NCBI GenBank assembly: GCA_016871315.1
Contig: VFZE01000016.1
Location: 1-64,000 of the forward strand
Direction: 5' to 3'
Length of the DNA: 64,000 nt
Origin: Acidimicrobiia bacterium
Lineage (GTDB): Bacteria > Acidobacteriota > Terriglobia > Bryobacterales > Bryobacteraceae
Shown here one piece after another: positions 18,131 through 39,241 of this stretch. The notes under the pieces were generated by a model. The model was not told the DNA's origin. It made no database searches and saw only the letters and a program-made list of their open reading frames with translations. Numbering within the stretch: position 1 is the stretch's first letter; each line of letters opens with the position of its first letter. Made by a program: the position numbers and the translations under genes.

Positions 18131-18424
18131 TCACAGCAGGGCGCGGGTGAGGGCGCTGTCGAGAGCTTCTTTGCTCATGGTGGTGGAAATGAAGAGTTCC
18201 TGGCGGGCGCCGGAGGCGAGGGCGATGGCTTTCCAGCCGTTTTGAGTCGGGACGGTGAGGCGGATTTTGAGGCCGCCCTTGGCGTCGCGGACGCGGCGGA
18301 TGACGCCGGGGATGATGGAGCGGATTTCCGGGTTCTGGGCGATGAGGCGCTCCAGGGCGGGGCGGAGGCCGTCGATGATGCTGTGCTCGATCTTGAGTTT
18401 GCCTTGCGAGGCGCGGAGTTTCAT
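18131..18424 (-). CDS. Small conserved protein, DUF2103-like (predicted metal-binding)
   Basis: A 97-residue protein with the pattern KIEHSIIDGLRPALERLIA, NPEIRSIIPGVIRRVRDAKG, LKIRLTVPTQNGWKAIALAS and RQELFIST. This resembles the DUF2103 family, described as predicted metal-binding, of unknown function. ATG 18422-18424 overlaps the stop of pcm as ATGA, so translation is probably coupled; the upstream in-frame ATG at 18436 lies inside pcm and is less likely. It is the last gene of the Omp85-SurA-TamB-Pcm operon. The family name is from memory of the pattern. The reading frame and operon position are secure. Confidence 0.65.
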   Translation of the reverse strand: MKLRASQGKLKIEHSIIDGLRPALERLIAQNPEIRSIIPGVIRRVRDAKGGLKIRLTVPTQNGWKAIALASGARQELFISTTMSKEALDSALTRALL

Positions 18425-19071
18425 GAGTGCTCCCAACCGTGCTCGCCGACCAGGGGGACGAAGCGGCAGTGGGTCACGATTTTGGTGTGGAACCGGTCGC
18501 CTTTTCTTTCGACAAGTTCGAGGGCTTGCTCCTTTCGGCCGCCGACGGGGATGACGAGGCGGCCGCCGTCCTTGAGCTGGTTGAGCAAAGCGGGAGGGAC
18601 GGAAGGGGCGGCGGCGGCGACGGAGATGGCGTCGTAGGGGGCTTCGGCGGGCCAGCCCTGGCTGCCGTCGGCGACGATGATTTCGACGTTGGAAGCGCAG
18701 CCAGCGTGCTTCAGGTTTTCGCGGGCTTGTTCGGCGAGCTCGGGAATGATTTCGAGCGCGATGACGCGGGCGGCAAGGCGGGCGAGCACGGCGGCATGAT
18801 AGCCGCTGCCGGCGCCGACTTCAAGGAGTTTTTCGTGGCCTTTGAGTTCCAGGCACTGGACCATGGTGGCGGTCATGTACGGCTGGGAAAGAGTCTGGCC
18901 ATAGCCGATGGGGAGCGGGTCATCGCCATAGCAGACGTCACGATCCCGGCGGTCGACGAACATCTCGCGGGGGATTTCCGACATCGCCGTGAGCAGACGC
19001 TTGTCATGAATGCCCCGCGAGGCCAGCTGCGTCTTGACCATGTGCAGGCGCTTGGCATCCAAGCCGGTCAC
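18421..19071 (-). CDS. pcm: Protein-L-isoaspartate O-methyltransferase
   Basis: The enzyme methylates isoaspartyl residues of damaged proteins with S-adenosylmethionine so that they can return to normal aspartate. The 216-residue sequence has the family motifs PLPIGYGQTLSQPYMTATMV (around residues 52-71), the SAM-binding LLEVGAGSGYHAAVLA, and the C-terminal FVPLVGEHGW. Length is typical. The start is GTG at 19069-19071, overlapping the tamB stop as GTGA; its own stop overlaps the next start as ATGA. It is a cytoplasmic enzyme embedded in an envelope-assembly operon, which is unusual company. There is no signal peptide, so it should act in the cytoplasm unless exported by another route. Confidence 0.93.
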   Translation of the reverse strand: MTGLDAKRLHMVKTQLASRGIHDKRLLTAMSEIPREMFVDRRDRDVCYGDDPLPIGYGQTLSQPYMTATMVQCLELKGHEKLLEVGAGSGYHAAVLARLAARVIALEIIPELAEQARENLKHAGCASNVEIIVADGSQGWPAEAPYDAISVAAAAPSVPPALLNQLKDGGRLVIPVGGRKEQALELVERKGDRFHTKIVTHCRFVPLVGEHGWEHS

Positions 19072-22000
19072 TTGAATCTCTTCCGGTACTGGAAATCGAT
19101 ACCGAAGATGCCGTTGTCATCGCGGACGGCGATCATCGAATAGTCGCGCGAGAAATCCCACTGGAGGCGGACGATTTGCTGCTGTGTGCGGTTGAGGCTG
19201 GTGATGTAGGTCATGGTGATGTCGCGCGTGAGCTGCTGCTCAATGGTGAGGCGGGCTTGCGGGGTGTTGGTAACGCCGGTGAGGTCGGGATCGATCTTGA
19301 GGCGGCTGACGCCGAAGAAGCGCTGGAGGCGTCCGCTTAGGGGAGCGGCGACGGCTTGGCCGAGGAGGGAGTTGCTGCCGGACTGGAGGAAACTTTGGTT
19401 TTGGGAGACGGAGCCGGCGACGGAGGTGCCGGGTGCGCGGCCGACGGTGAGCAGGGCAACGATTTCGGCGGACTGTAGCGGCGGATCGGAGCGGTAGCTG
19501 ACGTTGAGCTTGCCGACAGGACCGGAGAAGTTGATGGTGACGGTGATGCCGCGGACGCGTGTTTCGACGTCGAGGTTGAGGACGGGCTCAACCTTGACGG
19601 GGTTGAAGAAGCTGATGTCGCCCTGGGTGATGTTGTAGCGGTTGCCGAAGAATTGGATCTCACCCTGGTTGACGGAGACGCGGCCGAGCAGGACGGGACG
19701 CTCGGGGGTACCGCGGAGGCGGAGGTCGGCCTCGGGCTGGATGTCGCGGGTGAGGGAGGTTTGCAGTTCAGCGTCGGTGGAGGTTTCGATGCGGACGTCA
19801 AGCTGCATGTTGCGGAGAAACTCGTTGGGCGGGACGGGGGGGCCGGCGGCTCCGGTTTCGGCGAGGAGGCTGCCGAGGTCGGTTTTCGGAGTGATGCCCA
19901 TCTTGGTGACGGTAACGCCGCCGCTGAGCATGCTTTGGGCAGCGGTGCCGGTGAGGTTGAGGCTGGCGTCGAAGGTGGTGGAGACGGCTTCCGGATAGCG
20001 GACGCGGACACGCTGGGCGTTGGCCTGAAGGCGATAGACGAGTTGATCGCCGCCGAATCCGATGAAGCCGCTGAGCTTGAGATCGCCGCCGCCGGTTTGG
20101 GCGGTGAAGTTGTCGAGCGAGGCGCGGCTGCGGTCAAAGAGGATGACGCCGTTGGCCTTCTCGAGGCCGTTGGGAACTCCGCGGAGATAGAAGGAGGCGT
20201 CTTTGAGTTCGAGGCGGCCGTTGACTTGCGGGCGTTCGAGCGAGCCGCGGATGGTGGCGTCCAGAGTGGACTTGCCGGTGGCGAGCAGGTCGGGTTCCAG
20301 GGTGGCGAGAGCGGGCAGTTCGAGACCGCCCTTTAGTTGGAGGTTCCAGGTGCTGCGGGCGCGGAAGGCGACAGTGCCCGAGGCCTCCAGGTCCGTCCCT
20401 TCGCCGATGATGTGAGCGGACTGGACGTGAAGGCCGCGCGAATCGATGTGGGCGACGAGAGGATCGCGATTGCGGAGGAGGACTCTTTTGCCGTTGGCCG
20501 GAGCGGTGGAAGGTTCAATCTCGAGGGTAGTGATCTTGGCCGCCGCCGTCCAGCGATCAGGCTGGAGCACCGGGCCGGAGAAGCCGATCTCACCGTCGAG
20601 CACCGCCTTGGCGGGCAGCGGCCTGCCGGGGACGCCCATGATGCCGAGGTCCTGGAGGGCATCCAAAGTGAGGCGGGAGACGCGGACCTGGCCGAGACCG
20701 TAGCCGGTGCGGCTGCCAAGGCTCCATTCGGCGCTGCCATGGACGGAGGAGCCGATGAGGCTGCCATCGAGCGAAAAATTGGCGACGGTTCCCGACGTGG
20801 AGGCCACCAGCAGGAGACCGCCCGCGGGCCGCCCGGAAACGTTGAGGTCTGCAAGCTCCAGGCGTCCGCCGACGGAGGCAAGCTGCGGCTGTCCGTTGAC
20901 GATACGCGCGGCGCCGGCGAGGCGTCCGGTGATGCGGCCGCTGAGCTGCTTGGGAACGTCGAGCAGGGCGAAACTGCGCAGAGTCAGGCCGGCGGTGGAG
21001 GCGGAAAACTGAGCCTGGGAGTTTTGCCATCCCTCACCGGGACGCTCGAGAGAGCCGGAAAGATCCAAGACGGATGCGCCGTCCCGGAGCTTTCCGTTAA
21101 GCAGTTCGATGCGGTGGGAAGAGAAGCGCAGGTCCGCGTCGGCGGATTCAAACGGCTCTCCCCAGAACTCGGGAGCCGAGAGAGCGATGCGGCCTTGACC
21201 GCGTGGGCCGCCCCAGGTGCCTTCCAGGTTTGCACGCACGGTCATCTTGCCTTTGAGAGGATAGTCGAGCCGGTTTTCGTTGAGCGCTGCGTCGAGGGCG
21301 GCGGCTTCCAGGGAAAGATTGGCGGCGAGCCGGCTGGACTCGACGGGACGCCAGTTTTCCAGAGCGAGTTCGAGATTGCCGGCGCCGCGGAGGGAATCCT
21401 GGCTGAATTCGGCTGAGGAGAGGATGAGGAGGGAAGGGGAGGCGTCGACGACGGCTTTGAAGTGGCGCAGGGCACGATCGTCAAAGCGCAAGGGGCCGGC
21501 TTCGACCTGGCCTTTCAGGTGAGGCTCGCTCCAGGTTCCGGTGAGCTTGCCTTGGAAGCGGGCGGTTCCTTTTTCCAAGCGCAGGGGCAGCGGGGCGGGG
21601 GCCTGTTCGGAGGCCAGGGCGAGGGCGGGGAGAAGATCGTCGAGGTTGGAGGAGAACAGGCCAAAGGTAATGCCGCCGTCAAGGGAGCCGGAGAAGTGCA
21701 CCCTGGTATGAGGCAGTTGGATGGCCGATTCGGCGAAGCGCATCTCGCCGCGGCGGGTGTCGTAGTCCATGGCGAGCCTGCCGCCGACAGAGACGCCATC
21801 GGAGGAGGGTTCGAGTGTGAGATCCGTGGTCACCTGCCAGCCTTGGGCGGCGGCAGCCCCCCAAGCGCCTTCCACGGAAACGGGACCGGAGACGATCGCT
21901 GACCATGCGAGATTGGTTCCCGCGCGGGCCTGGTTGAGTTTGTCGAGAGCAAAGCCGGCGGCCTCGCCGGAGAGGCTGATGGTGGACCAGTCGCGAATGG

Positions 22001-23042
22001 AGGCCTGGCCGGAGAAGGCTCCGCCGAGCAGCTGAGCCTCAAAGTTGTCGACCTTCAGTTCATCGGCAGTGGCGGACCAGTGGGCGCCGAGAGAGGCGTC
22101 GCGGATGTCGACGCCGTACTGGCGGTAGGCGAGTCCGGATGCGGTAGCATCGCCGCGTGCATTCCACTGCGTGCCTTTGAACTCGAGGCGGCCGTTCCAG
22201 GCGGCGTTGCCTTGGGGGAGGATGGGAAGCGGGAGGCGGGCGATGAGTTCGGGGACCGACTGGCGGCCACGGAACTGGAAGTTGCCCGAGGGTGGATCGG
22301 AAAAGGCGACTTCGCCGGCGCCGGAAACGGAAGAGCCGTTTGCCGACAGCTCCAGCTTGGAGACAGCGAGGCGATCCTGGGTGAGACGGAAGGCGAGCCC
22401 GGCATCGGCGGCGAGCGGAAGGCGGAGCGGCTGGCGGAGCTCGGTTCCAGCGCTGCGGAATTCGCCGCTATAGGCGCGGGCAGGGCGGTCAAAGTCGAGG
22501 CGGATCTCGAGGCCGCGGCCGGAGGCATCGACGGGCCAGCGGCTATCGCGATAGCCGACGCTGCTGTTGCTGACGCGGTACTCGCCGACGGAAAGGTCGA
22601 GAAAGCGCTGTAAAGGCTTCTTGGGATCGCGCGGGGTTTTCGGCTCCGGGATGTTGGTTCTTCCGTTCTTGTCGACGGTGACGGAGAGTTCGCAGGCGCG
22701 GAGCTGAAGGAAGGCGATCTCGATCTTCCGTTGGAGGCCGGAGACGATCTTCAGGCCGGCCGAGATGTGTGCGGCACGAAACAGCGGCGGCTGATCGGGG
22801 CTCTCGAGTCCGTGAATGACAAGGCGGTCGAGATCGGCGCGCAGCGCGCGCCAGTCGAAGTGAAACGCGGCAAGTTCGACACGGCCGCCGGTTGCGTTCT
22901 CGATTTCGAGCACGATTCTCTGGCGGACCTTTTCTCGCAGCCAGTCCGACTGCAGGAGCCAGAGGGCGGCGGCGCCGGCGAGGAAAACGGCCGCGAGCAG
23001 TACGGCGCCGGTGCGCAGCCAGAAGCGGGCGCGGCGGGTCAT
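19068..23042 (-). CDS. tamB: TamB-family translocation and assembly module protein
   Basis: The 1324-residue protein starts MTRRARFWLRTGAVLLAA, an N-terminal inner-membrane anchor. A very long beta-rich AsmA/TamB-type body follows, and a typical DUF490 C-terminus: RVSVNQGEIQFFGNRYNITQ, GDISFFNPVKVEPVLNLDVE, RGITVTINFSGPVGKL, SDPPLQSAEIVALLTVGRAP and the last residues YRKRFK. TamB proteins span the periplasm as hydrophobic grooves and act with an Omp85 partner in outer-membrane protein or lipid delivery. ATG 23040-23042 overlaps the upstream SurA-like stop as ATGA; the longer open frame to 23201 is arginine/proline-rich and is a shadow. Position next to an Omp85 gene strongly supports the assignment. 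Confidence 0.9.
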   Translation of the reverse strand: MTRRARFWLRTGAVLLAAVFLAGAAALWLLQSDWLREKVRQRIVLEIENATGGRVELAAFHFDWRALRADLDRLVIHGLESPDQPPLFRAAHISAGLKIVSGLQRKIEIAFLQLRACELSVTVDKNGRTNIPEPKTPRDPKKPLQRFLDLSVGEYRVSNSSVGYRDSRWPVDASGRGLEIRLDFDRPARAYSGEFRSAGTELRQPLRLPLAADAGLAFRLTQDRLAVSKLELSANGSSVSGAGEVAFSDPPSGNFQFRGRQSVPELIARLPLPILPQGNAAWNGRLEFKGTQWNARGDATASGLAYRQYGVDIRDASLGAHWSATADELKVDNFEAQLLGGAFSGQASIRDWSTISLSGEAAGFALDKLNQARAGTNLAWSAIVSGPVSVEGAWGAAAAQGWQVTTDLTLEPSSDGVSVGGRLAMDYDTRRGEMRFAESAIQLPHTRVHFSGSLDGGITFGLFSSNLDDLLPALALASEQAPAPLPLRLEKGTARFQGKLTGTWSEPHLKGQVEAGPLRFDDRALRHFKAVVDASPSLLILSSAEFSQDSLRGAGNLELALENWRPVESSRLAANLSLEAAALDAALNENRLDYPLKGKMTVRANLEGTWGGPRGQGRIALSAPEFWGEPFESADADLRFSSHRIELLNGKLRDGASVLDLSGSLERPGEGWQNSQAQFSASTAGLTLRSFALLDVPKQLSGRITGRLAGAARIVNGQPQLASVGGRLELADLNVSGRPAGGLLLVASTSGTVANFSLDGSLIGSSVHGSAEWSLGSRTGYGLGQVRVSRLTLDALQDLGIMGVPGRPLPAKAVLDGEIGFSGPVLQPDRWTAAAKITTLEIEPSTAPANGKRVLLRNRDPLVAHIDSRGLHVQSAHIIGEGTDLEASGTVAFRARSTWNLQLKGGLELPALATLEPDLLATGKSTLDATIRGSLERPQVNGRLELKDASFYLRGVPNGLEKANGVILFDRSRASLDNFTAQTGGGDLKLSGFIGFGGDQLVYRLQANAQRVRVRYPEAVSTTFDASLNLTGTAAQSMLSGGVTVTKMGITPKTDLGSLLAETGAAGPPVPPNEFLRNMQLDVRIETSTDAELQTSLTRDIQPEADLRLRGTPERPVLLGRVSVNQGEIQFFGNRYNITQGDISFFNPVKVEPVLNLDVETRVRGITVTINFSGPVGKLNVSYRSDPPLQSAEIVALLTVGRAPGTSVAGSVSQNQSFLQSGSNSLLGQAVAAPLSGRLQRFFGVSRLKIDPDLTGVTNTPQARLTIEQQLTRDITMTYITSLNRTQQQIVRLQWDFSRDYSMIAVRDDNGIFGIDFQYRKRFK

Positions 23043-23692
23043 TGAATAGCCTCCTCGACAAAGCGGACGCGCGTCTGGCGGCGGGACTGGTTGAGCCACT
23101 GGTTGAGGGCCTGATCGGTGCGCTCGGCGACAAGGATGCTTTCCACTTCCTCGGCGGCGTCCTCGAGAGCGGGCGGCGGGGAGTTGTTGCGGCGCTCCCA
23201 ACCGGGCACGAATTGTTCGCGGTAGTAGATTTCAATTTCGCCATCCCCGACGGCGACGCCGGGGCGGAAACGGAGCTCGATGAACCGGAGCGTGCCGAGC
23301 TGAAGGATGAGGTGACGGCGGAGGATACTCTCGGTGATTCCGTAGGAGGCGAGTGTGCGGAGAAAGGAGTCCTCATCGGGAAAGCGTTCCTTGCGGATTT
23401 CGGCGAGGAGGGGTTCGGCCTGTTCGTGGCCGGGCAGCACGTAACCGCTGAACTCCATTTCCTGACGGAGGAGAGTCTGCTCGATCATGCGGTCGGCGGC
23501 GCGGCGGCGGGCGAGAGGGCCGAGATCGAGCGGTTCCTGATTGAGGAAGGCGGTAACGCGGACCTGCTCCTCGACGGCGCTTTGCGTAATGACGGTACGG
23601 CCCATGGTCACGGCGACACGGTCGATGATTTCCGCGGAAGCGGGAAGCATCGCGAGGACGAGCAGGGAGCCGATGGGGGTTGCGCGCCTCAT
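23039..23692 (-). CDS. SurA-like periplasmic chaperone lacking a PPIase domain
   Basis: The 217-residue protein has a signal peptide (MRRATPIGSLLVLAMLPASA) followed by EIIDRVAVTMGRTVITQSAV. That is the standard opening of SurA/PpiD-type chaperones. Helical SurA N-domain features follow: ARRRAADRMIEQTLLRQEM, FRPGVAVGDGEIEIYYREQF, then a short C-terminal helix (ERTDQALNQWLNQSRRQTRV). The parvulin prolyl-isomerase domain normally inserted before the last helix is absent, so this is predicted to be a chaperone only. It starts 1 bp after the Omp85 gene ends and overlaps tamB by 4 bp. Its inferred job is handling unfolded outer-membrane proteins in the periplasm. Confidence 0.8.
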   Translation of the reverse strand: MRRATPIGSLLVLAMLPASAEIIDRVAVTMGRTVITQSAVEEQVRVTAFLNQEPLDLGPLARRRAADRMIEQTLLRQEMEFSGYVLPGHEQAEPLLAEIRKERFPDEDSFLRTLASYGITESILRRHLILQLGTLRFIELRFRPGVAVGDGEIEIYYREQFVPGWERRNNSPPPALEDAAEEVESILVAERTDQALNQWLNQSRRQTRVRFVEEAIQ

Positions 23693-23693
23693 A

Positions 23694-26606
23694 TTAAAAA
23701 GTCTGCCCCAACGAGAAGTGAAATTGGAAGCGGTTGATGCGCTGGGTGACCAGCTGCGGCAGGCCCGTTTCCCCTGGGCCTGGCGTTTTGAAGAAGGAGA
23801 ACTCGGGGGAGTTGGGACTGAAGGAGAGGTCGATGCGGAAGGGCCCGACCGGGGTTTTGTAGCGGATGCCGAACCCGGCCGAGTGGACCATGTAGTTGAA
23901 GTCCTGCAAGTCGCGTTGGGTGGGGCGTAGGCTAAGCTCGCGGAAGCGGGTGTAGACGTTGCCGGCGTCGTGGAACAGCACGGCGCCGATGGCTTCGCCG
24001 AGCAGCGGGAAGCGGAGCTCGAGATTGTTCATGAGGAGGCCGCTGCCACCGAGCGGGAAGCCGGTGGTGAGGTCGCGGGGGCCGGCCTGGTTGTCGGGGA
24101 AGGCCCTGTGGGTTGCGGCGCCGCCGGAGAAGAAGCGCTCGGGGAGGGGGACGGCGTCAGGCCCGCCGGCGCGGAAATTGTGGAGCCAGCCGATGGTGAT
24201 GCTGCGGGCGAAAATCATGTCGCCGAAGACCTGATGATAGGAAGAGTTGCGGGCGAGAATGCGGATGAAGTCGGCTTCCGAGAGAAAGGCTTTGGAAGCG
24301 AGTCCGGCGTCGAAGCTGTTGTAGTAGCCCTTGTGGGAATCGATGGGATCGTCACGGCGGTCCATGATGAAAGTGGCGGAGGCGATGCCGACGCGGACGG
24401 GGCGGGAAAAGATGGGGATCAGGGATTCATCGATGGCGAGATTGCGGACGGTGTTGCGGCGATAGGTGAAGCGTGACTGGAGGGTGTTGGCGCGGGAGAG
24501 GCGCTGGCTGAGCTGAACGGCGCCCTCCTGGCGGCGGCCTTCAAAGGTGCGGATGTCGCGGCTGATGTCGTAGAGGAGGCTGCCGGTAAGGGAAAGATCG
24601 TCGCGGCCCTTGAACTGCGGGGCGAGATAGGTGAACAGGCCGCGTTGCTGAATGTTGGAAACGCGGGTCTGGATGCTGGCGGTATGCCCAATGCCGAAGA
24701 GGTTGGCGCGGCTGACGCCCAAGCTGACGCGGGGGCTGAAGCCGGGCTCGCCGGCCGGAGCGTCGAAGTTGGGAGTGCCCGCGCCGATGCGCGCGATTTC
24801 GGCGCCGAGGCCGAAGTTGAGAGAGTATTTGCGGGCCTCTTCAAACTGGTACAGGACATATTTGGATTCTTCCCGGCCGTCGGGGTTTTGCAGGGCCATG
24901 TCGACGCGGGCAAAGACGCCGAGGTCATAGAGGCGGCGCTGGCTTTCAATGAGGCGGGACTGGGAGAGCGGCTCACCGGGGCCAAGCTGGATGCGCTCGG
25001 CGACCATGCCGGGATTGGAGGCGAGCAGGCCGCCGGTGAGCACGCCGCGGACATAGCTCTGGCTGCCTTCGGTGATTTCATAATGGATGGCCTTGCGATG
25101 CGGGCCGGCATCGGTGACGGTGAAATCGAAAGCGGCATCGGGGTTGCCGCGGTTGTAGAAGAAGTTGAGCACGGCGTCGCGATCGGTGGCGAGGTTGGCC
25201 TGGCTGTAGGGCTGACCCGGGATGGAACTGAGGAGAGGTTCGATGCGCTCCAGGCTTGCATCGCTGAGTCCGATGATTTCCAGGGATTCGACCAGCGTCT
25301 GCGGCCCTTCCTCAATGGCCACGGTAACACCCAGCTGATCGGCCTCGCCTTCGTAGTTTTCGATGGTCTGGGTGTTGATGTTCACTTCCAGGAATCCGTT
25401 GGAGGTGTAGAGCTCGCGGATGCCGGCGACATCGGAAGCGAGCATCTGTTCGCTGAAGCGGCCGCGGCGGAAACGGATTCTGGTTGCCGGCAGCACATTC
25501 ATGCGCTCGCGGATGGTTTCTTCCTGGAAGTACTGGTTGCCGGTGATCTCGAGGTGTGCCAGTTTGTAGCGTTCCCCGCGGTCCACTTTATAGACGACAG
25601 ACTGGCGGCCGGCCTCAAGCGAGGCGGTGTCGAAGCTGACTTTGGCGCGAAAGTAGCCTTGGGACTGGAAGTATTCGGTGAGGTTGCGCATCCCCTCGAC
25701 AAGCAGATCGCGGTCGGCGGATTGTTCGAGGAAAACGGGAACGAGGCGGCGTAGCTGGCCACGGGAGACCTTGGCTCCGGTAACCTCGATTTCCACTTTC
25801 GGGCCGGGTTCGATTTCCAGCACGGGTTGGGCGACGCTCTCGCGCGGCTTATAGTCGAGTTCCTTGAGCGTGACGCGGTTGAGCAGATGGTCGCGCCTGC
25901 TGTAGTAGGTTCGTATGTGATCGAGCCCCTGCTGGACGCGGGTTTCGGTGACAGGCTTGTAGCCGAGCAGCCCCCACAGGCGCTTCCACTTGGAGGCGTT
26001 GACGACGCGGTCGAACTCCCTTTGGGGGACGCCACCGATGACGGGTTCGGTGAGGCGGGAGCGCGGGCCGGGGTCGATCTCAAAATCGACGTGGACCTGG
26101 AAGGTGCCGGGATCGTACTCGGTCCGGGGGTTGAGCCGGGCCTCATAGTAGCCGTTGTCTTGCAGCCGCTGGCGGAGATTCTCGACGGCCTGCTGGAGAT
26201 CCTCGGCGTGAAACTCGGTACCGAGTTCGAGCTTCGCGGCGCTGATGAGCTGGCCGCGGTTGGGCGGCTCAGGAACGCCATCGACGCTGACACGGCCGAC
26301 GAACCAGGTGGCGGTGGTGAGGAAACGCAGTGCGACACCGCCTTGGTCCCTGGAAGCATCCACGCTGATTGCCTGATAGCGGCCGGTGGCGTAGAGGCGC
26401 TCAATGGCGTAGCGCAGGGTTTCCAGATCGAGCATATCGCCGGCTTGCATGGGAACAATGTTGGCCAGCTCGGCGGTGGGTAGCGGCTGTGCGGCAGGTT
26501 CGAAGAGGACTCGAGTGACGGGCAAGCCCTGGTAGTCCCTGGCCTCGGCGCGGGCAATGGCCGGCAGAGTGAGAAGGAGCAGCGCAAGAAACGCACCAAC
26601 ACGCAT
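23694..26606 (-). CDS. Omp85-family outer-membrane assembly protein (BamA/TamA-like)
   Basis: The 970-residue protein has a signal peptide (MRVGAFLALLLLTLPAIARA). About five to six POTRA domains fill residues 25-590; typical segments are GLPVTRVLFEPAAQPLPTAE, GYYEARLNPRTEY, ITGNQYFQEETIRERMNVLP and YTSNGFLEVNINTQT. The C-terminal 16-strand-type barrel begins near KYSLNFGLGAEIARIG. The signature region GTHRAFP is represented by GGAATHRAFPDN, followed by GSGLLMNNLELRFPLLGEAI, and the protein ends RFQFHFSLGQTF with a terminal phenylalanine. It inserts beta-barrels into the outer membrane or partners TamB. ATG 26606 is preferred to GTG 26621 because it opens the signal peptide directly. It is the first gene of the operon. 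Confidence 0.9.
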   Translation of the reverse strand: MRVGAFLALLLLTLPAIARAEARDYQGLPVTRVLFEPAAQPLPTAELANIVPMQAGDMLDLETLRYAIERLYATGRYQAISVDASRDQGGVALRFLTTATWFVGRVSVDGVPEPPNRGQLISAAKLELGTEFHAEDLQQAVENLRQRLQDNGYYEARLNPRTEYDPGTFQVHVDFEIDPGPRSRLTEPVIGGVPQREFDRVVNASKWKRLWGLLGYKPVTETRVQQGLDHIRTYYSRRDHLLNRVTLKELDYKPRESVAQPVLEIEPGPKVEIEVTGAKVSRGQLRRLVPVFLEQSADRDLLVEGMRNLTEYFQSQGYFRAKVSFDTASLEAGRQSVVYKVDRGERYKLAHLEITGNQYFQEETIRERMNVLPATRIRFRRGRFSEQMLASDVAGIRELYTSNGFLEVNINTQTIENYEGEADQLGVTVAIEEGPQTLVESLEIIGLSDASLERIEPLLSSIPGQPYSQANLATDRDAVLNFFYNRGNPDAAFDFTVTDAGPHRKAIHYEITEGSQSYVRGVLTGGLLASNPGMVAERIQLGPGEPLSQSRLIESQRRLYDLGVFARVDMALQNPDGREESKYVLYQFEEARKYSLNFGLGAEIARIGAGTPNFDAPAGEPGFSPRVSLGVSRANLFGIGHTASIQTRVSNIQQRGLFTYLAPQFKGRDDLSLTGSLLYDISRDIRTFEGRRQEGAVQLSQRLSRANTLQSRFTYRRNTVRNLAIDESLIPIFSRPVRVGIASATFIMDRRDDPIDSHKGYYNSFDAGLASKAFLSEADFIRILARNSSYHQVFGDMIFARSITIGWLHNFRAGGPDAVPLPERFFSGGAATHRAFPDNQAGPRDLTTGFPLGGSGLLMNNLELRFPLLGEAIGAVLFHDAGNVYTRFRELSLRPTQRDLQDFNYMVHSAGFGIRYKTPVGPFRIDLSFSPNSPEFSFFKTPGPGETGLPQLVTQRINRFQFHFSLGQTF

Positions 26607-26657
26607 TCCGGCCGAAGTCACTTACATGTCATGATAACAACACCGTGATGGGGTGAA

Positions 26658-27593
26658 TCAGAGGCGTTCGAGTTCGGCGGTGGCGCGGAGGTTGGCGACG
26701 CCGGCGGTGTAACGTGTGTCGGTGACGGAGAAAGCGACGGCATCCTCCAGCCAGTCGTGCCAGACACCGTCCGGGTCATGGGAGGCGGCGGTGAGCGTAT
26801 ACTGCTGCGGGCAGAGCCCGCAGGGGAAGCGGAAAGTGACGGCAATTCGGGCGCCGCCTTCCACGGGACCCAGCTTCAGGCGCTCCAATTCGGTGTTGGT
26901 GCCGAAGACTTCAAAGCCGATGCGGGTCCGGATCATGATGCCGACAACGGGATCCTCGACAGGCTGAGTGAACTTTACGCCGACGCGAACGGCGACGGGT
27001 TCGCCGGATTGCCACTGGACAGTGGCGTTGCCGCCGGCGTCGAGAGTTTCCAGGGAGACGATTTCTGCGCGGCCGTCGCCACGGCGCATGGAAGGGGCAA
27101 GCGGTTCGCTGATAGAGGCGGCCCATTGGCGGAGCTGTGAGTTGACGTGGCGGTTGTAGGCATCCAGGGTTATGCGGGGATCGCCCCTGGTTTCCAAACG
27201 GCCGCCATTGAGCCACCAGACCTCGTCGCAGAGGCTTGCGAGGAGGTTCTGGTCATGGGAAATGATGAGAATGGAAGCGCCGTGGCGGCGGAGGCGCTCG
27301 ATACCGATGGAGGAGCGGGCGCGGACGACGGCGTCCTGAAGGGCGAGGGGATGCTCGAGCACGAGCGTAGCGGCGGGCGCCAGGTTGAGCGGATCGGCGG
27401 GGCCCACCAGCCGCGCCGGCGGGGCGGCGCGCACTTCCCCTGTGGAGGGCCGGAGAGCGCCAGCAGCCAGGCGGGCGAGCGCGGAGAGGGCATCCGGCTG
27501 ATCCCCGATGACACCGATGATGGTACCGTCTGGGACTTCCGCGCGGACCGGTTCCAGCGGAGCCAGGGCCGCGTCACGAAACTGGATGCTCAT
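26658..27593 (-). CDS. Degenerate ABC ATPase-like domain fused to Wzt-type glycan-binding domain
   Basis: The 311-residue protein begins like a polysaccharide-export ABC ATPase (GTIIGVIGDQPDALSALARL, then AAGALRPSTGEVRA), but the Walker A GKST is absent. Only about 50 residues separate it from a Walker-B-like TLVLEHPLALQDA. There the catalytic DE has become EH, and the helical subdomain with the LSGGQ signature is missing. The H-loop region survives (ASILIISHDQNLLASLCDEV then WWLNGGRLE). Residues about 165-311 form a beta-sandwich like the Wzt C-terminal domain that recognises O-polysaccharide ends: EIVSLETLDAGGNATVQWQS, VGIMIRTRIGFEVFGTNTEL, CGLCPQQYTLTAASHDPDGV. The start is ATG 27591-27593. 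It probably binds glycan without hydrolysing ATP. No permease gene is adjacent. Confidence 0.7.
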   Translation of the reverse strand: MSIQFRDAALAPLEPVRAEVPDGTIIGVIGDQPDALSALARLAAGALRPSTGEVRAAPPARLVGPADPLNLAPAATLVLEHPLALQDAVVRARSSIGIERLRRHGASILIISHDQNLLASLCDEVWWLNGGRLETRGDPRITLDAYNRHVNSQLRQWAASISEPLAPSMRRGDGRAEIVSLETLDAGGNATVQWQSGEPVAVRVGVKFTQPVEDPVVGIMIRTRIGFEVFGTNTELERLKLGPVEGGARIAVTFRFPCGLCPQQYTLTAASHDPDGVWHDWLEDAVAFSVTDTRYTAGVANLRATAELERL

Positions 27594-27614: not shown

Positions 27615-28976
27615 ATGGTGAATTGTCTGCGTCTGCTGACGCCCGCCCTGCTGGCGATGCTTTGGGGCTGTTCGTCACCGGAGAGCAGTCTGCAGCGGCA
27701 GTTCAGCAAGACCAACACGGGACGATTGCAGTTGCCGGCCGGGACGATGGAAATTAGCGAGCCGCTGTTCGTGCCGGTGGGGGCCACGGATCTGGAGATT
27801 ACCGGTGACAACACGGTGCTGCGGGCCTCGGCGGAGTTTCAGGGGCGCGCGATGATCCTGATCCGCAGCGCGCGGAAGGTGCGGCTGCATGGTTTCTCGA
27901 TCGAGGGGAACCGGGCCACTTTTTCCAAGGTGACCGAGATTCCGCCGGCGGAGGCCCCGTTTGTCACGCACTTTCAGGGCAACGGCATCATCGCCGATGA
28001 TGTGGACGGGCTGGAAATGAGCAACATCCAGCTTCGCGAGATTCCGGGATTCGCGGTTCTGGTGAGTGCATCGCAGAACGTGACGATTGAAAAGGTCACG
28101 GTGGAGGATAGCGGCTCCTCCAACAGCAAGTCGCGGAACAACACCTCCGGGGGGATTCTGCTGGAGGAGGGCGTGCAGAACTTCACGGTTCGGGACTGCA
28201 CGCTGCGGAAGGTCCTGGGGAACGGGATCTGGACCCATTCCACCTACCGGTCACCACGCAATTACACGGGACAGATCACGGGGAACCGGTTTGAGATGAT
28301 CGGCCGCGATGCGATTCAGGTGGGACATGCGAACCGGATCCGCGTGGAGAACAATACAGGACACATGATCGGGTATCCGGAAAAGACAGTGGACGTGGAG
28401 GGCGGAGGCATCCCGGTGGGGATAGATACGGCGGGCAAGGTGGACGAGTCGGTTTATGCGCGGAACCGGTTTGAGGAGATCAATGGGAAGTGCATCGACC
28501 TGGACGGGTTTCATGACGGAGAAGTGGCCGAGAACGTCTGCATCAACCGGGGCGCGGCGGCCGACTATCCGCAGGGCCACTTCGCGGTGGTCTTCAACAA
28601 CACCAACCAGGAGATGCAGTCGCAGAACATTACCGTTCGGGACAATGTCTTTGACGGGACGAAGTTCGGCGGGATCTTCGTGATCGGCTCCGGCCACAGG
28701 ATCACGGGGAACAAGCTGACCAATATCAACCGCGCGAAATGCAACGAATCGGCGGCCACCTATGGCTGCAAGCACTTCGAGAAGGAGCCGGATCTGATGC
28801 AGGCGGGGATCTATCTGGGCCTGCGGGCCGAAAGGCATCATCCGGCGAACAACACCCTGATCGAGGGCAACCAGGTTTCCGGGCATAAAATGAGGGAGCG
28901 CTGCGTGATGGCGGCGCGCGATCCATCGGTCCACAGCAACACGATCCGCAACAATGTCTGCACCGACGCACCCTGA
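27615..28976 (+). CDS. Right-handed beta-helix lipoprotein
   Basis: The 453-residue protein has a lipoprotein signal (MVNCLRLLTPALLAMLWGCS, lipobox cysteine near residue 19). A parallel beta-helix (pectate-lyase-like) fold follows: repeated short strands such as VRLHGFSIEGNRATF, LEMSNIQLREIPGFAVLVS, NVTIEKVTVEDSG, FTVRDCTLRKVLGNGIW, HANRIRVENNTG and ITVRDNVFDGTKFGGIFV. Such proteins usually bind or cleave polysaccharide; no catalytic residues can be assigned with confidence. It lies 21 bp from the divergent ABC-like gene, so its promoter must overlap that gene's coding sequence or the tiny gap. Its last 23 bases overlap the start of the following methyltransferase gene, implying co-expression. 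Confidence 0.8.
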   Translation: MVNCLRLLTPALLAMLWGCSSPESSLQRQFSKTNTGRLQLPAGTMEISEPLFVPVGATDLEITGDNTVLRASAEFQGRAMILIRSARKVRLHGFSIEGNRATFSKVTEIPPAEAPFVTHFQGNGIIADDVDGLEMSNIQLREIPGFAVLVSASQNVTIEKVTVEDSGSSNSKSRNNTSGGILLEEGVQNFTVRDCTLRKVLGNGIWTHSTYRSPRNYTGQITGNRFEMIGRDAIQVGHANRIRVENNTGHMIGYPEKTVDVEGGGIPVGIDTAGKVDESVYARNRFEEINGKCIDLDGFHDGEVAENVCINRGAAADYPQGHFAVVFNNTNQEMQSQNITVRDNVFDGTKFGGIFVIGSGHRITGNKLTNINRAKCNESAATYGCKHFEKEPDLMQAGIYLGLRAERHHPANNTLIEGNQVSGHKMRERCVMAARDPSVHSNTIRNNVCTDAP

Positions 28977-33765: not shown

Positions 33766-34530
33766 ATGCTGCAAGTTGCAAACCTTGTCAAACGCTACAA
33801 CCGGATTCCGGCGGTGGATGGGGTTTCGTTCACCGTCCGGCCGGGGGAGATTCTCGGCTACCTGGGGCCGAACGGGGCGGGCAAGAGCACGACGGTGAAG
33901 ATGCTGATCGGGCTGATTGAGCCGACATCGGGCGATATCTACTTCGATGGCGGTGATGTTCGGAAGGATTGGCCGGGGTTTCAGCGGAGGCTGGGTTACG
34001 TGCCGGAGGAGCCGTCGCTGTATCCGCACCTGGCGGGGCGTGAGTATTTGCAGCTGGTGGGGCGGCTGCGGGGGATGCCGCGCAAGGCGCTGGAGCCGCG
34101 GATGGATGAGATGTTGCGGCTGCTCGGGCTGTGGGAGGACCGGCACACGCCACTGGCCTCCTACTCAAAGGGGATGCGGCAGAAGATACTGTTGTCAGCG
34201 GCGCTGCTGCACAATCCCGAGTTGCTCATCCTGGATGAGCCGTTCTCCGGGCTCGACGTGAACACGGCGGCGATTCTGCGTTCGCTGTTGTGGGCGCTGG
34301 CGAGGGAGGGCAAGATGATCCTCTACAGCTCGCACGTGCTGGAGGTGGTGGAGAAGGTCTGCACGTCGGTGGTGATTTTGCGCAAAGGGAAAGTGGTGGC
34401 GCACGATGCGGTGGAGAGCCTGCGCGGGCTGATGCAGCAGCCGACGCTGGAGGCGGTGTTCGCGCAGCTGACCGAGCAGGAGGATCCGGGCCGGATCGTG
34501 GGCGGGATCATCGCGGCGATGCGGGGGTAG
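33766..34530 (+). CDS. ABC transporter ATP-binding protein
   Basis: The 254-residue ATPase drives the ABC-2-type permease encoded 4 bp downstream. It has Walker A GPNGAGKST (about residue 37), the Q-loop region GYVPEEPSLYPHLAGREYLQ, the signature SYSKGMRQKILLSAALLHNP, Walker B LLILDEPFSGLD and the H-loop YSSHVLEVVEKV. ATG 33766 is chosen over the in-frame GTG at 33703 because the conserved domain begins MLQVANLVKRYNRI. It is the first gene of a run (ATPase, permease, PadR, ADOP) with gaps or overlaps of 4 bp. The substrate is unknown; the organisation resembles drug, lipid or ion exporters. Confidence 0.93.
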   Translation: MLQVANLVKRYNRIPAVDGVSFTVRPGEILGYLGPNGAGKSTTVKMLIGLIEPTSGDIYFDGGDVRKDWPGFQRRLGYVPEEPSLYPHLAGREYLQLVGRLRGMPRKALEPRMDEMLRLLGLWEDRHTPLASYSKGMRQKILLSAALLHNPELLILDEPFSGLDVNTAAILRSLLWALAREGKMILYSSHVLEVVEKVCTSVVILRKGKVVAHDAVESLRGLMQQPTLEAVFAQLTEQEDPGRIVGGIIAAMRG

Positions 34531-34534
34531 CGGG

Positions 34535-36190
34535 ATGCGAGAGACGGGCTCGACGGGGTTCGAACTGCGGCGGCACTTTTTCGCGCGGTTTTTCGACAGC
34601 GACCTTGTGGCGACGCCGGGGCAGTGGAAGATTGTGGCGGCGGGCCTGGTGGCCGTTGTCTTTTCCCTGGCGCTGATCTTCGCGCAGGCTTACTACGCCA
34701 AATACGGGGCGCTGAAAAAGCTGGATGTGATCGAGCCATACCGTATGGCGCTGCTGGCCGATGCGCTGTTTCTTATCTGTCTTGCGATGCTGCTGACGGG
34801 GCTGTTCACGACGCTGCTGTGGCCGAACCTGTTTCCGGGCCTGCGCGATTATATGACACTGGCGTCGCTGCCGATTCGAACCAGGCAGATCTTTCTGGCG
34901 AAGTTCGCGGCGCTGTTCTCGTTTGCGGCGGCGTTTGCGGCGTCGATCGCGCTGCTGCCGGGCGTCATTCTGCCGATGGTGGTGGCGGGGCGCTACGCGA
35001 CGCATTCGGGGCGGCAGATCGCGGCCGTGTTCCTGTCGATGTTTCTCTCCTCGCTGCTCGTGTTTTTCACGCTTGCCGCCTTGCAGGGGCTGTTGCTGAA
35101 CCTGACGCCGGTGCGGCTGTTTCCACGGCTGTCGCTGGCGGCGCAGGGATTGCTGCTGACGCTGCTGCTGATGCTGGCGCCGGCGGTGTTGAAGATTCCC
35201 AACTGGCACACGTCGATGCATCTGCGGCCGGATTGGATGGAGTGGGCTCCGCCGTTGTGGTTTCTTGGCCTGCACCAGGTTGTCAACGGGAATGCGGAGT
35301 CCGCAGCCGTGGCGCTGGCGAGGCTCTCGGCGGCGGGCTTGATGCTGGCGGCGCTGATCTGCCTGGCCACCTATTATTGGAGCTACCGCCGGCACCGCGT
35401 GCGGCTGCTGGAATGTCCGGCGGAGACCGAGCGCGCCGCCGGGTTCGCTTTTCCGGAGCGGCTGGTAGAGAGGCTGCTGCCGGAACAACGCTCGCTCGCC
35501 GTGTTTGCCTTCATCGGGAAGACGCTGGGCAGAAGCCGTACGCACCGGCTGGTGGTGACAGCGTTTCTGGCGCTGGCTTTGGCGGCTGCCTTCGAGGGGC
35601 TGTTGACGCTGAGTCCGGTCTCGGTTCCGCTGACGTTCAGCTTTTTCCTTCTGACGGGATTCGCGTACCTGTTCCGGCTGCCGGTGGAGCTGAGGGCCAA
35701 CTGGCTGTTCCGGATGCTGGAGCCGGGCTGGGGCGGGAAGCTGGTGGCCGGCGCGGAGAAGTTTCTGTTGTATGCGGCGATTGTGCCGGTGGTTGTGGGG
35801 ACGCTCCCGGTGCTGCTCGGTGGCATGGGCCTGCAACGCGGCCTGATCGCGTCGTTGTACTGCCTTGTGGCATCCTTGACGCTGATGGAACTGTTGCTGA
35901 CGCGCTTCCACAAGGTTCCGTTCACGTGCGGCTATCTGCCCGGACGCCGGCCGCTTATTGAGACGCTGGTGCTCTATGGCGTAGCGGTGACACTGTTCGT
36001 TTCGATTCTCGGGATGATCATCGGCGCGCTGTCTGGGGAAACCGGCTGGTCGGCGTTGATGCTGGCGTTGTGGACGGGACTGTGGTGGCGATTCCGGACG
36101 GCGCGGCTGGAGGATAGTCACCTGTGGCGGCTGGAATTCGAGGAGCTGGAAGAGATCAGCGTGCAGACGCTGAGCATCGAGAGGGACTAA
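34535..36190 (+). CDS. ABC-2-type permease-like membrane protein
   Basis: The 551-residue protein has about twelve hydrophobic helices, for example IVAAGLVAVVFSLALIFAQA, FAALFSFAAAFAASIALLPG and LTFSFFLLTGFAYLFRLPV. Soluble loops are short and basic. It starts 4 bp after the ATPase stop and ends 4 bp before the PadR gene, so it is the transport partner of the ATPase. No close subfamily is recognised beyond the ABC-2-like arrangement. The N-terminal segment ELRRHFFARFFDSDLVATPG is cytoplasmic. Export of a hydrophobic or toxic substrate under PadR control is an inference from context. Confidence 0.8.
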   Translation: MRETGSTGFELRRHFFARFFDSDLVATPGQWKIVAAGLVAVVFSLALIFAQAYYAKYGALKKLDVIEPYRMALLADALFLICLAMLLTGLFTTLLWPNLFPGLRDYMTLASLPIRTRQIFLAKFAALFSFAAAFAASIALLPGVILPMVVAGRYATHSGRQIAAVFLSMFLSSLLVFFTLAALQGLLLNLTPVRLFPRLSLAAQGLLLTLLLMLAPAVLKIPNWHTSMHLRPDWMEWAPPLWFLGLHQVVNGNAESAAVALARLSAAGLMLAALICLATYYWSYRRHRVRLLECPAETERAAGFAFPERLVERLLPEQRSLAVFAFIGKTLGRSRTHRLVVTAFLALALAAAFEGLLTLSPVSVPLTFSFFLLTGFAYLFRLPVELRANWLFRMLEPGWGGKLVAGAEKFLLYAAIVPVVVGTLPVLLGGMGLQRGLIASLYCLVASLTLMELLLTRFHKVPFTCGYLPGRRPLIETLVLYGVAVTLFVSILGMIIGALSGETGWSALMLALWTGLWWRFRTARLEDSHLWRLEFEELEEISVQTLSIERD

Positions 36191-36194
36191 AAAG

Positions 36195-36545
36195 ATGACA
36201 CAGCCGCGATTGGACCTGTTGCAAGGGACGCTGGACCTGATGGTGCTGCAGACGCTGGAGACAATGGGTCCGCAGCACGGCTACGGCATCGCGCGGCGCA
36301 TTGAGCAGGCGAGCCAGGAGGCCATCCTGCTGAACCAGGGAACGATCTATGCCTCGCTGGTACGGCTCCAGCAGCGCGGCTGGATCAGCGCCGCGTGGGG
36401 AACTTCGGAAAACAACCGGCGGGCGAAGTTCTACTCGATTACGGGCGCGGGCAAGCGGCAGCTAGTGCGGGATGCGCGCAACTGGAAGCGCCTGTCGGAG
36501 GTGATCGGCCGGATGCTTACCGCCGAGGGCGGCGGCGCGGAATGA
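36195..36545 (+). CDS. PadR-family transcriptional regulator
   Basis: The 116-residue protein has the PadR winged helix-turn-helix pattern LLQGTLDLMVLQTLETMGPQ, HGYGIARRIEQAS, LNQGTIYASLVRLQQRGWIS and RRAKFYSITGAGKRQL. PadR proteins are repressors that often respond to aromatic or hydrophobic compounds. It starts 4 bp after the permease gene. Its TGA overlaps the ATG of the following ADOP permease (ATGA). PadR-ADOP adjacency is very common in Acidobacteriota. It probably controls this operon, but no operator could be identified by eye. Confidence 0.93.
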   Translation: MTQPRLDLLQGTLDLMVLQTLETMGPQHGYGIARRIEQASQEAILLNQGTIYASLVRLQQRGWISAAWGTSENNRRAKFYSITGAGKRQLVRDARNWKRLSEVIGRMLTAEGGGAE

Positions 36546-39241
36546 CGGATCCTCTGCGCGCGGGATGGCGGCGGCTGGTGTCGCTGGCGCGGCGGCGCGA
36601 GTTGGAAGTGGAGTTCGAGCAGGAACTGGCCTCGCATCTGGAGCTGTTGATCGAGGAATACGAGGCGCGCGGGCTGCCGAGGGAAGAGGCGCGGAGGCTG
36701 GCGCGGATCAAGCTGGGCGGCGAGGCGCAGTTGGCCGAGTCGCACCGCGACCGCAACGGGCTGCCGTGGCTGGAGCAGATGCTGCGCGACTGGCAACTGG
36801 CCTTCCGCTCGCTAGGGCGCAATCGGCTTCTGTCGGCTGTCGCGGTGATGTCGCTGGCACTCGGCATCGGCGCCAATACCGCCATCTACAGCCTGCTCGA
36901 CCAGGTGCTGCACCGCCGGCTGCCGGTTGCGAACCCGGAGCAGCTGGTGTGGCTGAATCCGCGCGGCCCGGCGTTCGGCAATCCGGCGGGCTCGCAGATC
37001 ATGTCGTATCCGATGTACCGGGACATCCGCGACCGGAACCAGGTGTTCACGGAAGTGTTCGGGCGGATGATCCTGCCGGCGCACATCGCCTTCCCGGATC
37101 ACTCCGAGCGTGTTTCGGCAGAGATGGTTTCGGGCAATTACTTTCGGGCGTTGGGACTGAAGCCCTACATCGGGCGGCTGATCGGCCCCGAAGATGACCG
37201 GGCGCCGGGAGCGCACGCGGTGGCAGTGCTTTCCTACAGCTACTGGCGCACACGATTCAGCGGCCGGCGCTCGGTACTGGGCGATCCGATCTTCATCAAC
37301 GGCACGCCGTTTAAGGTGATCGGGGTTTCTGGTCCCGAGTTCAAGGGGCTGGACATGCCCGTGTCGCCGCAGATCCGCGTACCGGTGATGATGAAGTCGA
37401 GCCTGACGCCAAACTGGGACGAACTCGAGAACAGGCGCATGCGCTGGTTCAACGTCTATGCACGGCTGAAGCCGGGAATCACGCGGGAGAAGGCGCAGGC
37501 GGCGCTGGAGCCGCTCTACGCCGGCCTGTTGGAGATGGAATCGATGGAAGCCGGGTGGGAGCGGGAGCGGATGCGGGGGTTTCTGGCAGGCAAGCTGGCG
37601 TTGCAGCCGGGCTCGCAGGCGGAGTTGCCGGACCGGCGTTCGCAGCCGCTGTCGTTTCTGCTGCACGGAATCGTGGCGGCGGTGTTGCTGATCGCCTGCG
37701 CCAACATCGCGAATCTGCTCTTGGCGCGCGCCGCGTCGCGGCACAAGGAGATCGCCATCCGGCGCGCGCTGGGCGTTTCCCGCCGGAGGCTGATCCACCA
37801 GCAGCTGGCCGAGAGCATGCTGCTCGCGCTGTCGGGAGGGCTGGTGGGACTTGGCGTGGCGCGGTGGACGGCCGGCTACGTGATCGGATTCGCGCCGCCG
37901 GAGATGGCCGGCTCGCTTACGCCGGACCTGGACCGTCATCTGCTGCTGTTCAACTTCGCGGTGGCTACTGTGACGGGTTTGGTATTCGGACTGGCGCCCG
38001 CTTTGCAGACGACGCGAGTCCAGCTAACGCCGGCGCTGAACGATCAGACCGGCTCGGCGGGAGTCTCGCGCGGCCGGAACCGCTGGCGCAAGGCGCTGGT
38101 GGCGGCGCAGATGACGCTTTCGGTTGCACTGCTGGCCACCGCGGCTTTTTTCGTGCAAAGCCTGATGAACCGCCGGGGCACCGACATCGGCTTTCCGCGG
38201 CAAAGACTGATCGCCTTCAGCCTGGACCCGAGACTGAACGGATACTCGCCGGAGCAGACACGGCAGCTGTGTGAGAGGCTCCAGGAGCGGTTGGGGGCAC
38301 TGCCGGGGGTAGCCAGCGCATCCAACGGAAAGTTCCCGGTCTTCGGAGGGCAGTATTGGATGAACGCCGTGGTGGCCGATGCCGCGCCTTCCTCCGCGCA
38401 CCCTGCCTATGTGAACGTGGTGGGACCAGGCTACTTCCGCACGATCGGCGTCAGGCTTGTTTCCGGACGTGAATTCACCGGGGAAGACCGGGGGATGTTT
38501 TATCGGGCGGCTGTGGTGAATGAGTCTTTCGCCAGACAGAAGTTCGGAGAGGCGGATCCGGTGGGGAGACGGATCGGGTTGGGAAACGGGCCGCGGACTC
38601 CGATCGAGATTGTCGGGCTGGTGAAGGATGTTTCCTACGCCTGGGTGAAGGGGCCGCCGGAGCCGCAAGTCTACCTTTCCACGCTGCAAGACCCGTCCCC
38701 ATCGCCATTGACGATGTATGTGCGGACGGCGGCGGAGCCGGAAACTTTGTTCCGTGCGGTGGAGCGGCAGGTGCGTGAGATCGACACGCATCTGCCCGTG
38801 TATGGACTGCGGACGATGGAATCGCAAATCGATGAGCGGCTGGTGGTGGAGCGCTTCATGGCGGAGTTTTCCTCCGGGTTCGCGTCGCTGGCGGCGGCGC
38901 TGGCCTCGATCGGGCTGTATGGCGTGATGAGCTACTTGGTTGCGTTGAGAGCGAGGGAACTGGCGATCCGGATGGCGCTTGGCGCGGCGCGGCGCGGAAT
39001 ACTGTGGCTGGTGATGCGGGAGGCGATGACGCTGGCCGCGGCCGGCGCCGCGGCTGGCCTGTTGCTGGCGGCGTTCATATCGCGGGCGCTGGCTTCGCTG
39101 TGGTTCGGGCTGGCGCCGCACGATGCTTTCACTTTGGGCAGCGCAACGGTGCTGATGCTGTTGGTGGCAGGGCTGGCAGGGCTTGGTCCGGCGCTGCGGG
39201 CCACGCGAGTGGATCCGAACCGGGTGTTGCATTGTCCCTGA
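36542..39241 (+). CDS. ADOP-family permease (MacB/FtsX-like, acidobacterial duplicated orphan permease)
   Basis: The 899-residue membrane protein has the ADOP layout. An N-terminal prefix domain comes first (FEQELASHLELLIEEYEARG, LPREEARRLARIKLGGE). A MacB-like periplasmic domain follows the first helix (AVMSLALGIGANTAIYSLLD). A three-helix FtsX module contains IACANIANLLLARAASRHKE, EIAIRRALGVSRRRLIHQQL and GLVFGLAPALQTTR. A second periplasmic domain and a second FtsX module (VALRARELAIRMALGAARRG, ending GLGPALRATRVDPNRVLHCP) complete it. ADOPs lack a dedicated ATPase, although one is encoded 2 kb upstream here. ATG 36542 overlaps the padR stop; the longer open frame from 36395 is a shadow. 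The function is unknown, perhaps envelope stress or export. Confidence 0.93.
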   Translation: MTDPLRAGWRRLVSLARRRELEVEFEQELASHLELLIEEYEARGLPREEARRLARIKLGGEAQLAESHRDRNGLPWLEQMLRDWQLAFRSLGRNRLLSAVAVMSLALGIGANTAIYSLLDQVLHRRLPVANPEQLVWLNPRGPAFGNPAGSQIMSYPMYRDIRDRNQVFTEVFGRMILPAHIAFPDHSERVSAEMVSGNYFRALGLKPYIGRLIGPEDDRAPGAHAVAVLSYSYWRTRFSGRRSVLGDPIFINGTPFKVIGVSGPEFKGLDMPVSPQIRVPVMMKSSLTPNWDELENRRMRWFNVYARLKPGITREKAQAALEPLYAGLLEMESMEAGWERERMRGFLAGKLALQPGSQAELPDRRSQPLSFLLHGIVAAVLLIACANIANLLLARAASRHKEIAIRRALGVSRRRLIHQQLAESMLLALSGGLVGLGVARWTAGYVIGFAPPEMAGSLTPDLDRHLLLFNFAVATVTGLVFGLAPALQTTRVQLTPALNDQTGSAGVSRGRNRWRKALVAAQMTLSVALLATAAFFVQSLMNRRGTDIGFPRQRLIAFSLDPRLNGYSPEQTRQLCERLQERLGALPGVASASNGKFPVFGGQYWMNAVVADAAPSSAHPAYVNVVGPGYFRTIGVRLVSGREFTGEDRGMFYRAAVVNESFARQKFGEADPVGRRIGLGNGPRTPIEIVGLVKDVSYAWVKGPPEPQVYLSTLQDPSPSPLTMYVRTAAEPETLFRAVERQVREIDTHLPVYGLRTMESQIDERLVVERFMAEFSSGFASLAAALASIGLYGVMSYLVALRARELAIRMALGAARRGILWLVMREAMTLAAAGAAAGLLLAAFISRALASLWFGLAPHDAFTLGSATVLMLLVAGLAGLGPALRATRVDPNRVLHCP

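Follow-up and report, generated by a model that had tools for sequence, protein, structure and literature searches.

Export of capped O-antigens couples recognition of the chain end and ATP hydrolysis within one protein. In the WbdD system, capping is described as essential for export (PMC3482155). For the Wzt protein of Aquifex aeolicus, PMC9445017 places the 3-O-methyl cap in a pocket formed by Asn313, Leu300, Thr346, Ala348, His350, and Trp362, with side chains contacting the sugar ring, the C2 hydroxyl, and the methyl group. According to the same study, helices 174–189, 201–207, and 226–240 of the nucleotide-binding domain (NBD) lie at the interface with the carbohydrate-binding domain (CBD), Tyr233 in the hinge helix contacts the second and third sugars, the Wzt_C dimer swaps its C-terminal strands, and transport by a truncated exporter is restored in trans when the CBD is expressed separately (PMC9445017). 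Here, we compare these systems with a degenerate Wzt paralogue, hereafter T, encoded in a 64,000-nucleotide stretch of a Bryobacteraceae contig (the whole of which is referred to as the window), and with its neighbors, hereafter B and M (Table 1).

Table 1. Features of the T locus, with positions counted along the window
Feature	Coordinates	Strand	Basis
T, degenerate Wzt paralogue, 311 aa	26658..27593	-	ORF, Pfam, predicted model; stop codon included
Wzt_C domain with conserved methyl-cap pocket (N233, T268, A270, H272, W281)	26691..27089	-	Pfam and alignment
D-E-V-W-W, residues 123–127, lineage-specific motif	27213..27227	-	Alignment
H-loop S-H-D, residues 112–114, kept	27252..27260	-	Alignment
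Walker B remnant LVLEH, residues 77–81, catalytic Glu replaced by His	27351..27365	-	Alignment
Stretch about residues 58–76, site of the canonical Q-loop, helical subdomain, and signature	27366..27420	-	Alignment
Walker A remnant, residues 27–38, without GKS/T	27480..27515	-	Alignment
B, right-handed beta-helix protein with signal-peptide-like N-terminus, 453 aa	27615..28976	+	Divergent from T; model
M, SAM methyltransferase with Soli_cterm-type C-terminal domain, 426 aa	28984..30264	+	Pfam, NCBIfam, alignment

T combines a degenerate ABC core with a complete Wzt_C domain

The T gene starts with an ATG at position 27593, immediately preceded by a TTG codon. Wzt_C (PF14524) was the sole Pfam match in the protein, at 113.6 bits against a curated cut-off of 30.4, and covered profile positions 3–142 of 143, which bears out an earlier, sequence-only reading of this locus that had described the C-terminal Wzt-like domain as complete. 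That reading had also taken the N-terminal half for an ABC ATPase, and had proposed profile searches of the two halves and structure prediction as checks. NCBIfam and PDB searches aligned this half to ABC proteins in two pieces with the middle missing, one from about residue 12 to 57 matching the Walker A region and one from residue 75 to 150 matching Walker B through the end of the NBD, and no search placed it outside the ABC family. The AlphaFold2 model was confident (pLDDT 92.9), its top seven Foldseek matches were all chains of Aquifex WzmWzt (E-values 1.7e-22 to 5.9e-21), and its NBD half superposed on the NBD of TagH over 158 residues (Z 21.2, 2.0 Å). These two-piece matches and the predicted fold thus identify the N-terminal half as ABC kin, whose remaining core, with its S-H-D H-loop, is predicted to fold well.

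We next compared 61 aligned T copies, i.e., the window copy and 60 of about 90 orthologue matches in the family, with 13 canonical Wzt paralogues of the same family (L095, L096, L099–L109; 370–439 aa). The latter share with T the Wzt_C domain and most pocket residues, and are 36–46% identical to it over about residues 70–308 among the listed matches; unlike T, all 13 retain an intact Walker A, the Walker B Glu, and the signature. At the Walker A position, the window copy reads GVIGDQPDALS, versus G-x-x-G-P-N-G-S/C-G-K-S in 12 of the canonical paralogues and G-E-N-G-S-G-K-S in the remaining one; an intact G-x-x-G-x-G-K-S was found in just four T copies (L047, L053, L054, L067). Walker B is altered at both acidic positions (LVLEH in the window versus LI/VVDE in canonical paralogues), and the catalytic-Glu column, occupied by E in 13/13 canonical paralogues, holds E in none of the 61 T copies and H in 37. 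The segment carrying the Q-loop, helical subdomain, and signature amounts to 63 alignment columns, which are filled in the canonical paralogues and hold no letter in 60 T rows and a single letter in L063. A helical subdomain with signature was accordingly absent from all 61 aligned T copies, the signature-like letters of L075 belonging to residue 38 in the N-terminal remnant. All three losses for which the sequence-only reading had argued, namely a Walker A without GKST, EH in place of DE in Walker B, and a missing helical subdomain and signature, were thereby confirmed. Gone with these elements are the ATP sandwich and, going by general ABC mechanics, the coupling to the membrane subunit.

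Other parts of the NBD remnant are kept. The H-loop His is present in 46 of 61 T copies, D123 and E124 are each invariant, and W126 and W127 occur together in 59, while position 124 is R (12) or K (1) in canonical paralogues. This D-E-V-W-W motif persists even where most of the NBD has been deleted (L073, L077, L078). Within Wzt_C, a CxLC motif is found in 59/61 T copies, and none of the 13 canonical copies has a Cys at the second of its Cys positions. D-E-x-W-W in the NBD remnant and the second Cys of CxLC are new near-invariants. Overall, T is almost certainly a dead ATPase with a conserved glycan-binding domain.

The methyl-cap pocket and the interface helices are retained

Aquifex residue numbers were transferred through a phmmer alignment with an offset of one, which gave the correct letter at all eleven named residues. 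The pocket residues aligned to N233, M220, T268, A270, H272, and W281 of T, such that T carries the counterparts of Asn313, Thr346, Ala348, His350, and Trp362. Among the 61 copies, these positions were occupied by N in 60, M or L in 61, T in 61, A in 59, H in 59, and W in 61. The tested residues other than His350 are also common in canonical paralogues, and because most of the pocket is shared in this way, it marks the subfamily rather than T alone. The His350 equivalent differs, with His in none of the 13 canonical paralogues and Gln in 12.

The three interface helices align with residues 88–103, 115–121, and 140–154 of T, and the model has helices at 88–103, 115–121, and 139–158. Neither Tyr233 (N147 in the window copy, R in 35/61) nor His355 (P274) is kept in T, whose trap loop is shorter than that of Aquifex Wzt by three residues.

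T is a single lineage of the Bryobacterales with low dN/dS in close pairs

Of 257 genomes sampled from the order Bryobacterales, at least 148 contained a T-type copy, three of these belonging to a second family; this lower bound counts rows at ≥298 bits, all from different genomes. Within the Bryobacteraceae, 92 of 150 genomes carried a T-type copy, as assigned from the listed scores (≥217 bits, plus two fragments in G101 and G087). Among the first candidates scored per genome, no T-type row was seen outside the order in 299 genomes of the class (cut-off 1e-30) or in 347 genomes of the phylum (cut-off 1e-60), both samples including genomes of the order. Relatives carry the names Bryobacteraceae, Bryobacterales, Solibacter, and Sulfopaludibacter in their record titles, and are mostly metagenome-assembled genomes (MAGs). 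One record titled Bordetella parapertussis (L154, a MAG) is an acidobacterial contig with a T gene, and its title is probably wrong.

In a tree built from 44 of the 61 T rows, three second-family copies, and 31 canonical Wzt rows, the 44 T rows grouped in a single clade (100/98), the three second-family copies branched with it (100/96), and all canonical rows fell on the opposite side. Together with the best sequence and fold matches, this tree supports the descent of T from Wzt. Since the single T clade includes the second family, the segment deletion most likely occurred once, before the two families of the order split. Decay of Walker A was gradual, with three changes needed among the 47 rows of T and second-family copies, and most of the NBD was lost in several lineages (e.g., L073, L077, L078, L076, L085, L087).

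Selection was evaluated through dN/dS for 366 pairs with dS under 1.2, of which six close pairs were trusted. These six displayed low dN/dS over both halves of T, and lower values over Wzt_C (e.g., 0.12/0.07 for L041–L043, 0.25/0.06 for L089–L094, and 0.05/0.03 for L077–L078). For distant pairs, dN/dS over the NBD remnant reached 1.11 among the 40 pairs listed of the 366, which we attribute to unreliable dS in these GC-rich genes. Only G434 showed a stop among the T-type rows of the order survey, and the single stops seen in G131 and G145 in the family survey were not repeated in the order survey. The intact reading frame first noted in the window copy was confirmed by full-length open orthologues across the family which, along with the low dN/dS of close pairs, rule out a pseudogene or frameshift reading. 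The survey for a conserved degenerate form suggested by the sequence-only reading thus recovered one widespread clade, with no frameshift truncation of relatives.

T is frequently associated with a methyltransferase and a beta-helix protein

In the window, T and B are arranged head to head with 21 bp between their start codons, and M lies beyond B. B is probably exported, judging from its N-terminus; a loose lipobox pattern was found in 19 of 52 B proteins, and the other N-termini shown were hydrophobic by eye. The B model (pLDDT 93.5) first matched the mannuronan C-5 epimerases AlgE4 (Z 36.8, 2.0 Å over 314) and AlgE6 in VIA, with tailspikes and polysaccharide lyases lower, and its top Foldseek match was the polysaccharide lyase RbmB (E 3.3e-9, modest TM-scores). 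B is predicted from this model to be glycan-active, a shared fold not being equal to a shared reaction. M has an alternative upstream start at 28954 that would yield 436 aa, and its E-I-G-C-G-P-G-R motif is invariant in 42 rows. PADLOC matched only its methyltransferase region (mads_2).

Across the 150 family genomes, T and B co-occurred in 86, with T only in 6, B only in 7, and neither in 51; for T and M, scored as present at ≥194 bits for M (the fragment in G119, at 191, being left out), the corresponding numbers were 87, 5, 10, and 48. Both associations are far above independence, based on raw counts that ignore kinship. B was located ≤3 kb upstream of T in 36 of 61 loci, or 38 when including L076 and L085, where the genes overlap by start choice, and M in 35. 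Neither was found within this distance in 17 loci (L076 and L085 counted as B-bearing); in L062, B lies at 3.03 kb, and L075 and L080 have little upstream sequence. T was found with neither B nor M in G064, G089, and G106, and no B or M was detected in the three second-family T loci (L218, L248, L249). B and M also occur together away from T (e.g., G010, G022, G074). Clustering of neighboring genes, for which T was parsed in 50 loci including the window, showed that clusters 3, 4, 6, 7, and 10 recur less. In the class sample, B was detected outside the family in one genome, G176, from another family of the class. This strong homologue (L256:3379-4845, E 8e-200) sits on a contig without T or M, and would reflect either transfer or contamination.

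Downstream of T, its strand carries a pcm-like gene, tamB, a gene whose 217-aa product has no Pfam match, and bamA (window positions 18421-26621). An operon of T with bamA was considered and rejected, as bamA, the 217-aa gene, and tamB were matched in 0/60 orthologue loci; they were also unmatched in the three second-family loci, with the window serving as positive control. Further along the window, genes for an ABC ATPase (33766-34530) and a MacB/FtsX-type permease (36542-39241) flank that of a 551-aa protein without Pfam match (34535-36190).

Canonical Wzt and Wzm proteins in T-bearing genomes

T is flanked in the window by B, M, and bamA, with no adjoining Wzm. Among 63 other T loci searched at E 1e-5, a Wzm-like frame was detected in one (L055), where it is partial, lies at the locus edge, and is separated from T by about 6.8 kb of unrelated genes. 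The genome of the window encodes a Wzm together with a Wzt whose match ends before Wzt_C (L254), and a similar pair was found in G064 (L258). It also carries two Wzm-like genes with no NBD matched within 7 kb (L253:2765-3730 and L255:2975-4261). Its closest canonical paralogue of T is not beside Wzm.

Each of 11 genomes examined encodes at least one further Wzt_C protein besides T. In five of these (G089, G363, G064, G106, G010), the sole other Wzt_C protein found is of a more distant type by score (71–95 bits, versus 107–123 bits for the closest type), and the closest canonical paralogue thus appears, on these scores, to be missing while T is kept. The closest canonical Wzt of the family is often directly downstream of phage-tail-like genes and not beside Wzm. 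In one such locus (L107:337-8878), PHROG matches included central tail fibre J, minor tail, and, weakly, tail sheath; the same gene clusters recur in L102, L104, L105, L106, and L108, and three L108 genes checked against PHROG gave no match. These upstream genes possibly correspond to a tail-like particle or an old prophage.

Discussion

We propose that T, a Wzt paralogue without catalytic capacity, serves as a cytoplasmic reader of a polysaccharide terminal cap, a reading to which we assign a probability of about 0.5. As an ATPase-derived scaffold that carries a Wzt_C domain, T would no longer power export and would bind the (methyl-)capped chain end and work in trans. It may then hand licensed chains to an exporter whose ATPase is without Wzt_C, such as those of L254 or L258, or alternatively hold the methyltransferase M at the chain end, while B would edit the glycan after export. 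The sequence-only reading had suggested a glycan sensor or adaptor rather than a transporter engine. We infer that this is the best-supported reading of T, in view of the loss of catalytic elements and helical subdomain and of the retained cap pocket and interface helices.

A different role for the same domain is conceivable, in which T is a regulator or scaffold whose Wzt_C binds a ligand other than a cap (e.g., a protein or a sugar metabolite) and whose D-E-V-W-W motif is the working surface. The near-invariance of this motif in T against R/K at position 124 in canonical copies, its survival in NBD-deleted copies, and the T-specific CxLC would all fit, yet the methyl-cap pocket residues are nearly invariant too, and the genes usually found beside T encode a methyltransferase and a protein predicted to act on glycans, so that we regard this possibility as unlikely. 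Degenerate sites occur in other ABC exporters, and T might instead be the half-dead subunit of an asymmetric exporter, joining a canonical Wzt by means of Wzt_C dimerization and forming with Wzm a complex in which a single ATPase works. The presence of a further Wzt_C protein in all 11 genomes and the L055 locus are consistent with such a pairing, and the strand swap described in PMC9445017 makes hetero-dimers conceivable. Several of our observations nevertheless argue against it: five T-bearing genomes seem to be without the closest canonical paralogue, L055 is alone among 63 other T loci in having a Wzm-like protein, and all 61 T copies are without helical subdomain and signature. Because these elements are gone, T cannot complete the ATP site of a partner or couple to Wzm in the usual manner. 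We therefore consider an asymmetric exporter distinctly unlikely, and less likely than the sensor or adaptor reading.

The remaining alternatives concern what is left of the ATPase. Four copies with an intact Walker A and the H-loop His of 46 copies would be compatible with a switch that binds nucleotide without hydrolysis; however, since Walker A is not intact in 57 of the 61 copies (the window and 56 others) and the segment is wholly absent from some, nucleotide binding is no general requirement of T, and a switch of this kind is very improbable. That T is a decaying, functionless relic is hardly credible: repeated Walker A decay, NBD deletions in several lineages, and the elevated dN/dS of distant pairs (for which dS is unreliable) go in this direction, but T is kept in more than half of the order genomes sampled, close pairs display low dN/dS over both halves, and both halves contain invariant residues in a confidently predicted fold.

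If T is indeed a cap reader, cap recognition and ATP-driven export would be separable in nature, and not just in engineered strains. In this Bryobacterales lineage, the reading half has been retained and the motor given up, and present-day copies have lost the motor to different extents, which provides a natural setting for testing how far cap recognition depends on the ATPase core. More tentatively, T may be a naturally occurring reader of glycan caps that works without ATP, its engine having been given up before the two families split. M, T, and B would then be the candidate writer, reader, and editor, respectively, of a capped polysaccharide at the surface of soil Acidobacteriota. Among the titles and abstracts listed in searches of the open literature, none dealt with a degenerate Wzt of the T type.

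Among known systems, T has the same beta-sandwich by Foldseek as the stand-alone Wzt CBDs 2r5o and 5hno, which presumably derive from E. coli O9a and Raoultella. Unlike T, these are isolated pieces of a full-length Wzt; W281 of T is opposite an Arg of 2r5o in a weak phmmer match (E = 0.45). The closest resemblance is to Aquifex aeolicus Wzt (PDB 8dku, 8dl0, 7k2t), which is the best sequence and fold match and, by comparison with PMC9445017, shares with T its domain order, 3-O-methyl pocket residues, and three interface helices. T differs in having no usable Walker A, catalytic Glu, Q-loop, helical subdomain, or signature, in the loss of Tyr233 and His355, in its shorter trap loop, and in the lack of an adjoining Wzm in the window. 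Finally, T and M would resemble the WbdD system (PMC3482155), in which a methyl-type cap written on the chain end is recognized by a Wzt_C domain. As a SAM methyltransferase adjoining the putative reader, M may follow the same logic, although unlike WbdD it was without a Pfam kinase match and ends in a Soli_cterm-type domain.
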